From: Melioribacter sp.
GTDB lineage: Bacteria; Bacteroidota; Ignavibacteria; Ignavibacteriales; Melioribacteraceae
Reading direction: 5' to 3'
Length of the DNA stretch: 44,280 nt
NCBI GenBank assembly: GCA_003155655.1
Contig: PMDS01000062.1
Span: 1 to 44,280, forward strand
Shown in pieces: positions 18,554 to 20,851 of the stretch (the first letter of the stretch is position 1; every line of letters begins with the position of its first letter). Both the position numbers and the translations under genes were made by a program. The notes beneath the pieces are model-generated. The model made no database searches. It was not told the DNA's origin and worked only from the letters and a program-made list of their open reading frames with translations.

Positions 18554-18874
18554 ATGGATAAATATCTTAAAGCACTGAAACAAAATGTTTGTTCAATTTG
18601 TGTTGACTCCAGTGAAAAGGGAGCTTGCACATTGAATGATAAAGAAACCTGCGCTGTGGAGTTGTACTTCCCGCAAATTATAGATGTAGTTCATAAAACA
18701 AAGGCTGAAAAGCTATTTGATTTGCAAAAAGAATTAAGAGAAACTATATGTACTCAGTGTCGTGCACAAGAAGCAGGGAATTGTTATCTTCGGGAAGATG
18801 CCAATTGTTCTCTTGACCGTTACTTCCCATTAATTGTGGAGATAATTAGGAAAGTAGATGCGGGGAAATTATGA
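18554..18874 (+). CDS. Small protein with duplicated four-cysteine module
   Basis: 106 residues that I cannot assign to a family. It is an internal duplication. Module 1 has Cys13, 16, 25, 33 (C-x2-C-x8-C-x7-C) followed by VELYFPQIIDVV; module 2 has Cys66, 69, 77, 85 (C-x2-C-x7-C-x7-C) followed by LDRYFPLIVEII. Each ends in the same [YF]FP plus a hydrophobic helix. The spacing suits a metal site (zinc or a [4Fe-4S] cluster) per module. No signal peptide is present, so it is cytosolic. It reads away from ubiE and sits just before the REP array. A role in redox or quinone metabolism from the neighbour is only a guess. Confidence 0.8.
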   Translation: MDKYLKALKQNVCSICVDSSEKGACTLNDKETCAVELYFPQIIDVVHKTKAEKLFDLQKELRETICTQCRAQEAGNCYLREDANCSLDRYFPLIVEIIRKVDAGKL

Positions 18875-18897: not shown

Positions 18898-19007
18898 AAC
18901 CTTTAAAGTCGCTTTTTTTTTAACCTTCAAGGTTGCTTTTTTAACCTTGAAGGTTACTAACATTTGCTAACCTCGAAGGACTTTTTAGCTACCTTCGAGG
19001 TTGCTAT
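18898..19007. repeat. REP-like composite palindrome, copy 1
   Basis: In order: a weak AACCTTTAAAGTC arm, then AACCTTCAAGGTT (18922-18934), T-rich spacer, AACCTTGAAGGTT (18943-18955), spacer with CATTTGC, AACCTCGAAGG (18969-18979) and its complement CCTTCGAGGTT (18992-19002). So two near-palindromes and one hairpin pair lie in about 100 bases. It starts 24 bases after the four-cysteine gene stop and would fold strongly in its mRNA. Confidence 0.85.
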
Positions 19008-19032
19008 TTGAAACAAGTTGCTTTATAGAAAT

Positions 19033-19074
19033 CACCAATTGAAGGTTGCCAAAAGTTGTTGTTTCAAATCTCGA
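19033..19074. repeat. Decayed REP-like copy
   Basis: CCAATTGAAGGTTGCC (from 19034) and CAAATCTCGAAAG (from 19065) match the second and third elements of the intact unit with several changes. I read it as an older, eroded copy between copies 1 and 2. Confidence 0.4.
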
Positions 19075-19086
19075 AAGTCTTTTTTA

Positions 19087-19192
19087 TCCTTTAAAGTTGC
19101 TTTTTTTTAACCTTCAAGGTTGCTTTTTTTAACCTTGAAGGTTACTAACATTTGCAAACCTCGAAAGTCTTATTCGCGACCACCGAGGTTAC
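19087..19192. repeat. REP-like composite palindrome, copy 2
   Basis: Same order and orientation as copy 1: CCTTTAAAGTTGC, AACCTTCAAGGTT (19109-19121), T run, AACCTTGAAGGTT (19131-19143), CATTTGC, AACCTCGAAAG (19157-19167), and an eroded last arm CACCGAGGTT (19181-19190). It ends four bases before the stop codon of the transposase pseudogene. Confidence 0.85.
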
Positions 19193-19196
19193 TCAA

Positions 19197-19754
19197 TCAC
19201 CAAACATCATAAACAGATTTACATTTATCATCTTCAATAAATTCAATAAGCCGCTTTTGAGTGTTAAAATATTCTATTACTTTATTATTTTCACATAGAT
19301 CATTATTCCTAATGCCAAACAAATCTTTAACGTTTGAAAAATCCCATTCAGAAGCATGTTTTACAAACCCGTCTTTTACCGGATTAGTAAGAATGTATTT
19401 AAATATCCATTTAAAATAGGAATCATCATTACAATGTTTTGATTTTGTTCTTCCTTCAAATAGAACACCGCATCTCTTATATTTTTTATTTATGGATTTT
19501 GTATATGAATTTGTTAAAGAAGAAATAAATCCGGATAAAGAATATTCATAGGTAGTTTGCTCTGCAAAAATGTGAAAATGGTTTGGCATTAAACAATAGC
19601 ATAAAATATTGATATGGAATTTCTATTTGTACTCTCTAAGTTTTTTAAGAAAATAAATATAATCGTTATTATCAAAAAATATTCTTTCTTTATTAGCGCC
19701 CCGGTTGTAAATATGGTGAAAAGAATCTTTATAAAAATTCCTGGGCTTATTCAT
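19197..19754 (-). pseudogene. REP-associated tyrosine transposase (RAYT, Y1/IS200-like), broken by an in-frame TAG
   Basis: Reading one minus-strand frame from the ATG at 19754 gives MNKPRNFYKDSFHHIYNRGA, then KERIFFDNNDYIYFLKKL, then REYK, a TAG stop (codon 44, at 19623-19625), and without any frame change KFHINILCYCLMPNHFHIF and so on to the TGA at 19197: 185 codons in all. The HUH pair is His59/His61 in PNHFH and the nucleophile Tyr84 in LTNSYTKSIN; the segment GVLFEGRTKSK is also typical. These proteins cut single-stranded REP hairpins. One base change is all that blocks it, so inactivation looks recent, unless the stop is read through or translation restarts at the ATG of MPNHFH (19589). 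REP-like copies lie on both sides. Confidence 0.88.
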
Positions 19755-19811
19755 ACTATTATGAATTTTAATATGTTATTAACACTTAATCAAAGAATTG
19801 GTAATCCTAAA

Positions 19812-19897
19812 AACCTTCAAGGTTGTTTTTTCAACCTTGAAGGTTACAAACATTTGCTAACCTCGAAGGATTTTTTTGCGACCTTCGAGGTTTCTAT
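19812..19897. repeat. REP-like composite palindrome, copy 3
   Basis: AACCTTCAAGGTT (19812-19824), T run, AACCTTGAAGGTT (19833-19845), CATTTGC, AACCTCGAAGG (19859-19869), and CCTTCGAGGTT (19882-19892). Same orientation as copies 1 and 2. It lies 58 bases beyond the pseudogene start and about 20 bases after the PAP2 stop, where it could also end or stabilise the PAP2 transcript. Confidence 0.85.
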
Positions 19898-19918: not shown

Positions 19919-20851
19919 TTAGTTGATATGTATTTTAAAAATCCTAAAACCTTTATCTATATATTTTCCGCTCCATATTGTAAAAAGCATAAAAACAACA
20001 CCGCCAATTAAATCAGTTACGTAATGATACCTTAAATAAACTGTTGCGAAGATTAAAAGAATTCCATTCGGAATAAAAAACCATTTTAAACGGCTTTTAT
20101 ATTTTATGGATAAAAACATTACAAGTAATGTCATCTGGGTATGCCCGCTTGGGAATGCATCACGCTGAACCAATAATGCCGGGTATAATGTACCGGATGG
20201 AATTGACTCCCCGGCGTTTACAATCTCTCTTAATAGATTTGTTATAAAAATCCCGGGCATTTCAATGTTAGTTGTCTCAAAATTATGAAGTGTAAAACGC
20301 GGACCTATTGCAGGTATTAAAATATAACCTATGAATGACAGGCAGAATCCGTAGACAATTATAAATGTTGAGTAATCAAATTCTTTCACTTTTTTTTGGT
20401 ACATTAAATCAAATCCAAGAATAATTGGCAGAAAGAAAAAAGTCCCGTAAACTATTTGAAGTAATTCAGTTAGAATGGGATTGGCTATTTTATATAATTG
20501 AATTGTTGGGTCAGCTTTGAATATTAGGCGGTCGAAGATAATTAAGACAAAATCATAAACCTTTCCCTGGATCGGATCTATCATAAAGTAAAGTTCTTTA
20601 TAAACGATAAATATAAAAGGTACCAAATACCAGATATGAAGTTGTTTCCAGATAAATTTTTTTGTTGTATCACTTTTTAACGCTGCAGCAAATACAAAAA
20701 AAATTATAATAATGTTTATTGTTATGTTTATTTGCCAGACAGCAACTTTACCGGCATAAATTAAATTAATCATGGAAAGTAAATACAAAAAGATAATAAC
20801 AGTCATATCTGCTGTCGATAGATGTTTGATTAATCTTTTAATTTCAGCCAT
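19919..20851 (-). CDS. PAP2-superfamily integral membrane protein
   Basis: 310 residues with about six to eight membrane segments. Late phosphatase motifs are present: FPSGHTQMTLLVMF (PSGH) and YLRYHYVTDLIGG (Arg and the His-x3-Asp pair). The first motif is represented by the GPRF region only loosely. Proteins of this subtype resemble Aur1/inositolphosphotransferase and undecaprenyl or phosphatidyl-phosphate phosphatases, so lipid-phosphate chemistry at the inner membrane is likely. It starts 15 bases after the rsmA stop and is probably cotranscribed with it. Confidence 0.88.
   Translation of the reverse strand: MAEIKRLIKHLSTADMTVIIFLYLLSMINLIYAGKVAVWQINITINIIIIFFVFAAALKSDTTKKFIWKQLHIWYLVPFIFIVYKELYFMIDPIQGKVYDFVLIIFDRLIFKADPTIQLYKIANPILTELLQIVYGTFFFLPIILGFDLMYQKKVKEFDYSTFIIVYGFCLSFIGYILIPAIGPRFTLHNFETTNIEMPGIFITNLLREIVNAGESIPSGTLYPALLVQRDAFPSGHTQMTLLVMFLSIKYKSRLKWFFIPNGILLIFATVYLRYHYVTDLIGGVVFMLFTIWSGKYIDKGFRIFKIHIN

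Follow-up and report, generated by a model that had tools for sequence, protein, structure and literature searches.

Does the cluster of composite repeats that brackets a RAYT frame in a Melioribacter sp. contig belong to a family of repetitive extragenic palindromes (REPs), and is the RAYT the enzyme that spreads it? The original prediction, made for the window (here, the whole stretch of 44,280 nt from contig PMDS01000062.1 that was analyzed), was that the repeat unit may be a new REP family and the RAYT its mobilizer. Having followed the repeats and the gene through the genome of origin and a set of 96 genomes, we consider the locus very probably a decaying REPtron, one that belongs to the REP family of a particular group of RAYTs, clade A, which is the clade of the window frame.

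Anatomy of the locus and its insertion slot

Comparison of direct repeats bore out the predicted arrangement of three good copies and one decayed copy in a single orientation: a unit of ~105 nt occurs three times, with a decayed fourth, and these copies bracket the RAYT frame (Table 1). Over 106 nt in register, units 2 and 3 are 81% and 79% identical to unit 1. The unit had been read as three hairpins; it is instead built of two inverted REP pairs, AACCTTCAAGGTT/AACCTTGAAGGTT and AACCTCGAAGG/CCTTCGAGGTT, the second of them decayed in unit 2, and each inverted pair folds into one long hairpin, giving two hairpins per unit. A degenerate palindrome around CCTTTAAAGT precedes the pairs in units 1 and 2. 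Folded as single-stranded DNA, units 1, 2, and 3 reach z = -7.7, -4.7, and -8.2, respectively, and for each unit 0/200 shuffles were equally stable.

Table 1. Features of the repeat locus and its two neighboring genes (positions are those of the window)
Feature	Position	Strand	Details
Left neighbor, small Cys-containing protein	18554..18874	+	Syntenic in five congeners without the insert
Unit 1	18898..19002	+	Direct repeat in register 18900-19005; degenerate palindrome AACCTTTAAAGTC, REP pair 18922-18955, CATTTGC-bearing spacer, REP pair 18969-19002
Decayed unit, between units 1 and 2	19039..19084	+	Shorter repeat matches 19039-19058 and 19062-19084
Unit 2, 3' side of RAYT	19086..19190	+	Direct repeat in register 19088-19193; REP pair 19109-19143, decayed pair 19157-19190
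RAYT (Y1 HUH transposase) frame, broken	19197..19754	-	Still encodes the HFH motif and the KYILTNP tyrosine region
In-frame TAG, codon 44 of RAYT frame	19623..19625	-
Unit 3, 5' side of RAYT	19812..19892	+	Direct repeat in register 19790-19895; REP pairs 19812-19845 and 19859-19892
Right neighbor, 310-aa protein	19919..20851	-	Syntenic in five congeners without the insert

Units 2 and 3 do flank a RAYT frame, as had been proposed, and the Pfam Y1_Tnp model (PF01797) matches this frame at 35.7 bits (cut-off 23) when read across the premature stop. The original prediction was right that a Y1/RAYT frame is present and lacked the TAG that interrupts it; restricted to its 130-aa open part, the match reaches 18.4 bits, below the cut-off.

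The order of the genes around the insert (ubiE-like, small Cys protein, PAP2-like, ksgA-like) is conserved in five congeners; we take the right neighbor to be the PAP2-like gene and, from their translations, the outer flanking genes to be presumably ubiE-like and ksgA-like. The aligned ends of the two neighbors lie ~50-140 nt apart in these congeners versus 1044 nt in the window, and both the RAYT and the insert are missing from the slot in 5/5 congeners in which it is readable, so that the element at 19087-19897, whose absence from relatives had been put forward as a check, is indeed absent there. The comparison covers the five of 11 congeners with a match to the right neighbor (six of 12 with the genome of origin included), the other six having no such match. 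Because the congeners are just 66-70% identical in the right neighbor, the exact junction of the insert is not readable. Nor was a target-site signature discernible at this locus. The insert was most likely gained at this slot rather than lost; loss in all five congeners would be possible, and is less simple. In three congeners (L108, L109, and L110), inspection by eye found the same slot to hold another palindromic repeat, of the GATCATGATC type. The small Cys protein, which adjoins the ubiE-like gene in the five congeners, has no Pfam match above cut-off.

Dispersal of the REP pairs and linkage to one RAYT clade

The composite unit is not itself the repeat family: in BLAST searches of the genome of origin and the 96 genomes the whole composite was found in the window only, everything outside being partial matches, and we rejected it as the family on that ground. 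What disperses is the palindrome pair. A first pattern, AACCTNNNNAGGTT, had the wrong spacing (6 matches vs. 12 in its control) and was dropped. The strict pair pattern, ACCTNNNAGGT-N1-30-ACCTNNNAGGT (ACCTnnnAGGT-N-ACCTnnnAGGT), occurs 15 times in the genome of origin and 442 times in the 96 genomes, 47 of which hold at least one pair, and the reversed pattern that served as control occurs in none of them and not in the genome of origin. The single palindrome AACCTNNNAGGTT is found 1284 times in the 96 genomes versus 445 times for its reversed control. Three of the 15 pairs in the genome of origin are in the window, two stand beside RAYT copies on contig C75, and 10 are spread over eight contigs.

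The prediction had asked for many dispersed copies of the unit in the genome and its relatives as support, and had named confinement to this locus as evidence of a merely local repeat. Taken literally, the composite is found only here, whereas the pair within it is widespread. Since the composite is local, the original interpretation is supported only in part: a pair that is dispersed, lies mostly outside open reading frames, and tracks a RAYT clade agrees with a REP family and its mobilizer, and the locality of the composite and the broken state of the local RAYT do not.

Among the matches listed, 50 of 55 pairs in four genomes lie outside ORFs, with nine of 10 in the genome of origin; ORFs were called simply and cover 60-81% of the DNA sampled for this count, and six of the 55 pairs flank a single RAYT. 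Such positions, and the finding that REP palindromes can end transcription (PMC6006769, as excerpted), would also suit hairpins that act as intrinsic terminators or other RNA structures near gene ends and whose link to a RAYT is incidental; the hairpin sequences, taken up below, make this very unlikely. Another explanation is that recombination or replication slippage multiplied the repeats and the RAYT played no part. The tandem arrays in the window and in genome G069, where six pairs surround one RAYT, fit slippage or unequal exchange, and some genomes have pairs with no RAYT match, yet dispersal over separate contigs and hairpins that track RAYT lineage are left unexplained, and we regard this account as extremely improbable.

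Around the hairpins themselves, a GT[AG]G at the 5' foot, counted on both strands, accompanies 1/122 pairs, so the canonical foot is absent, and no conserved tetranucleotide was seen outside the hairpins when the surroundings of REPs were searched for one. A possible shared CTAACAT word near clade-A REPs (seven occurrences in 16.7 kb vs. three in 47.0 kb) was set aside, since by eye it stems largely from a single array. REP-like pairs with a ~25-nt loop also occur within long open frames at L197, L210, and L220 (genomes G075 and G069).

Linkage to clade A was measured as the presence of a strict pair within 220 nt of a RAYT gene. In a first set, divided by protein score alone, 16/18 loci scoring at least 150 bits carry a flanking pair versus 1/49 other RAYTs; in a second set, again split by a protein-score cut-off, the figures are 12/14 versus 7/52. 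This second, named set comprises the best 80 of 185 loci, mostly from Ignavibacteria and Bacteroidota, from which 14 copies of loci already used were removed, and two of its seven positive "other" loci (L281 and L282) group inside clade A in the stem-triplet analysis described below. For comparison, 43/6122 stretches of 225 nt lying >250 nt from the gene hold a strict pair. Two of the 18 and two of the 14 clade loci (L035, L086, L237, and L255) have hairpins that the strict pattern misses, and no hairpin was detected for L091 and L094, two members of the supported set of 21 rows to which the window RAYT belongs. The RAYT DNA of L243 (Melioribacteraceae) and L249 (Melioribacter roseus) is identical to that of loci already in the first set, which position and hairpins show to be those of genomes G054 and G039 in the family of the window RAYT; this lends support to the original reading of the genome as of Ignavibacteria type.

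At the level of whole genomes, each of the 15 that carry a clade-A RAYT holds at least one pair (309 in total) versus 32 of the 81 others (133 in total); these counts include pairs that flank a RAYT, and G025 is assigned to the clade from a fragment of the gene. For the genome counts, for the stem-triplet analysis, and for placement in the named set, membership of clade A was decided while the hairpins were visible, the gene-flank test resting on score cut-offs instead, and among related genomes such as these Fisher and rank tests overstate independence. An intact RAYT of this subgroup is present in the genome of origin itself (C75:2228-2779), as the original prediction would have it. It had also treated copies in genomes without a RAYT as a sign against a RAYT-driven family, and at least one pair is indeed present in 17/55 genomes that lack a RAYT match at E ≤ 1e-10 (18 in G084 and 11 in G034), which counts against our reading. 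Pairs are likewise held by 15 of the 26 genomes with only other RAYTs. Because 5/50 RAYTs placed outside clade A (named set, best 80 of 185) carry a similar pair, the motif is not exclusive to the clade. Another family, REP-G, serves as a replicate with a mixed outcome: 3/3 genomes with its RAYT have 5-7 pairs, flanking ones included, and G023 has 11 pairs without that RAYT type among its matches, seven further genomes having one or two.

Parallel change, protein fold, and possible movement of whole units

Hairpin and RAYT change in parallel, and each RAYT type has its own REP type, though not exclusively. When 14 hairpin types (seven with several members) were mapped on the RAYT tree, 13 changes, the minimum, were needed versus a mean of 31.8 after shuffling; the types were labeled by eye after the hairpins had been viewed, and the count uses the 53/66 rows labeled, the other 13 being left out. 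Counted singly, types C, G, and T need three, two, and two changes. A label-free Mantel comparison of hairpin and protein similarity gave r = 0.69 over 55 loci (0/2000 permutations) and, without clade A, r = 0.58 over 36 loci (0/2000). Within clade A the central stem triplet clusters as well, with nine changes versus 15.7 when shuffled (0/200), its labels also being assigned by eye. The loci compared are a part of all RAYT matches: certain fragments are excluded, L076 is a duplicate of L034, and the trees omit L030.

These results bear directly on the terminator explanation, in that the hairpin sequence tracks RAYT lineage and the 5' and 3' hairpins of one gene resemble each other (similarity 11.5 vs. 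4.9; 44 loci, 0/5000). A hairpin stands upstream of the start in 47/66 RAYT loci, with 52/66 having one on the 3' side, 44 on both, and 55 on either. A further point comes from a second RAYT clade in the genome of origin, clade B (L031 at G000:C34:141798, L144 on G000:C110, and L030 on G000:C65), which has its own hairpin, CCGTCAGGGAATGGTCCCTGACGG: the core of this hairpin, REP-B, occurs 15 times in the genome of origin, twice in G002, and in 0/94 others, the control occurring once, in G056. No clade-B RAYT was found within 3 kb around the G002 copies.

Other hairpins were seen at more distant loci. Many Mucilaginibacter and Pedobacter RAYTs among the best 80 of 185 carry AAACTTACGAAGTTT-3nt-AAACTTCGTAAGTTT or close forms, in which the layout is shared and the stem bases differ, and 10 distant RAYT-like loci (L122, L123, L126, L129, L132, L105, L131, L135, L142, and L143) have GCACAGATT..AATCTGTGC-type hairpins or similar ones.

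Intact clade-A proteins are predicted to have a Y1 HUH fold with a catalytic Tyr, nearest to TnpAREP. The only PDB match of the clade-A profile at E ≤ 0.1 is the TnpArep structure 4ER8 (E = 8e-6), and with the AlphaFold model of the intact C75 copy (pLDDT 90.3) Foldseek ranked 4ER8 first (E = 6.3e-9), followed by IS608 and other IS200-type enzymes. Both His residues of the HUH motif, Tyr120, Asn124, and Pro125 are invariant in 16/16 clade-A proteins (HFH in 15, HYH in one), and the clade alignment gives the motifs NHFH, LF[EQ] (LLE in one), and YI[LV]xNP. The NCBIfam family REP_Tyr_transpos (NF047646, cut-off 80) matches clade A at 72.6 and 67.4 bits, below its cut-off and yet the best family match; the open part of the window frame scores 44.9, and clade B from the genome of origin reaches 113.6. 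Against the NCBIfam IS200 model, with its cut-off of 55, three intact proteins score 15.2, 18.8, and 28 bits.

The limits of homology between copies suggest that REP-RAYT-REP may move as a unit. The three clade-B copies have dissimilar surroundings; BLAST homology of L031 to L144 covers 1268-2018 of L031, ~10 nt past each hairpin, and the letters common to all three copies number three before the 5' hairpin and six after the 3' hairpin. The broken copy L030 is less alike between the 5' hairpin and the gene, its BLAST homology to L031 beginning near the gene. In the clade-A copies on C75 and C41, common sequence begins at most one base from the 5' pair's outer boundary. Genome G070 has two inverted 783-nt copies, 99.1% identical and ~58 kb apart, with homology that continues for 41-52 nt beyond the hairpins, into other repeats, and both carry the same in-frame TAA, so that one broken copy was duplicated, which recombination or help supplied in trans would also explain. 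At L078 (G090:C40), ~50 nt of the upstream gene's end appear by eye to recur past the 3' REP pair, as if by insertion duplication.

Homology that runs roughly from hairpin to hairpin in clades A and B, and the near-identical G070 copies, could also be taken to mean that the locus is an ordinary IS200/IS605 insertion sequence with REP-like subterminal hairpins, the dispersed pairs being MITE-like remnants. We think this unlikely given that the IS200 model falls far short of its cut-off, that REP_Tyr_transpos does better though also below cut-off, that among solved structures TnpArep comes closest, with IS608 behind it, and that symmetric inverted pairs occur alone at many sites. The stop shared by the G070 copies makes both whole-unit movement and the insertion-sequence reading less likely.

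For the decaying REPtron that we favor, the most likely course is that a RAYT gene, with REP pairs on either side, inserted between two conserved genes once the lineage had separated from its congeners, that the local REP pairs then multiplied into the array of three to four units, and that the window RAYT took its premature stop. Intact clade-A RAYTs would bind the paired palindromes as single-stranded hairpins and use the HUH/Tyr active site to cleave and religate them; most likely it is they, rather than another enzyme, that would spread REP pairs into intergenic sites, sometimes moving their own gene between its flanking pairs.

A wider generalization is possible, if doubtful: the RAYTs of Ignavibacteria may form many lineages, each with its own REP stem and no GT[AG]G guide, some of which move REP-RAYT-REP as an IS-like unit and shed REP pairs as non-autonomous passengers. 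Were it true, autonomous REP-RAYT-REP units would link IS200-type elements to proteobacterial RAYTs, which are not known to transpose as whole units, and the matched changes in stem and RAYT might amount to a recognition code. A group without GTAG that has many co-changing RAYT/REP pairs, sometimes two per genome, would be a natural set for matching protein changes to stem changes, and movement of whole units would bear on transposase domestication.

Relation to known systems

The kind of system is known, and within the main texts searched the clade-A REP family and its clade appear new. In published main texts, six 13-base words of the clade-A and Sphingobacteriales REP families matched unrelated work only, and literature on Ignavibacteria with repetitive extragenic palindromes, in the portions of text searched, yielded Caldithrix only. 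One survey, as excerpted, found qualifying RAYTs only in gammaproteobacteria (PMC2817692), and "Ignavibacterium" has no mention in the main text of a 2013 survey (PMC3733652). The original statement was that no described family was known in a genome of this type; RAYTs whose flanking structures lack GTAG have been published for Bacteroidetes (PMC6006769, as excerpted).

The excerpted text of that work (Quentin et al. 2018) describes TnpAY1 subclass 2.6, Bacteroidetes-centered and with the motifs NH[LIV]H, WQ, and YIH[QN]NP. It resembles clade A in that unusual secondary structures lacking GT[AG]G border its genes and recur elsewhere in the genome, and in a length of about 180 aa; the clade-A motifs differ, LF[EQ] (LLE in one) standing in place of the WQ of the canonical subclasses, a comparison made by protein motifs and description. 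The TIRtrons (TIRYT) of the 2013 survey, as its excerpts have them, are similar in being RAYT-like genes with non-GTAG flanking repeats, some of which are self-complementary and recur across the genome; they are set apart by their common motif, GGGGWSAS, which differs from the one described here. With IS200/IS605 elements (IS608 and ISDra2), clade A shares the Y1 fold, hairpins near both ends, and some whole-unit copies, and differs in scoring far under the IS200 model and in having inverted REP pairs dispersed without the gene.

In the parts of PMC8266576 drawn on here, two TnpAREP groups have co-evolved with their REPs, and it is on GTAG-type systems that the way RAYTs recognize REPs was elucidated. 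The REPtron of E. coli (TnpAREP/RAYT, REP/REPIN, 4ER8) is alike in its HUH/Y1 protein, 4ER8 being the nearest structure, in the several inverted REP pairs that flank the gene, and, according to the excerpts of PMC6006769, in dispersed intergenic copies and a repeat type of its own for each gene type. Unlike it, clade A has short, symmetric palindromes whose hairpins go without the GT[AG]G guide (1/122), and several cases here resemble the copying of a whole unit.
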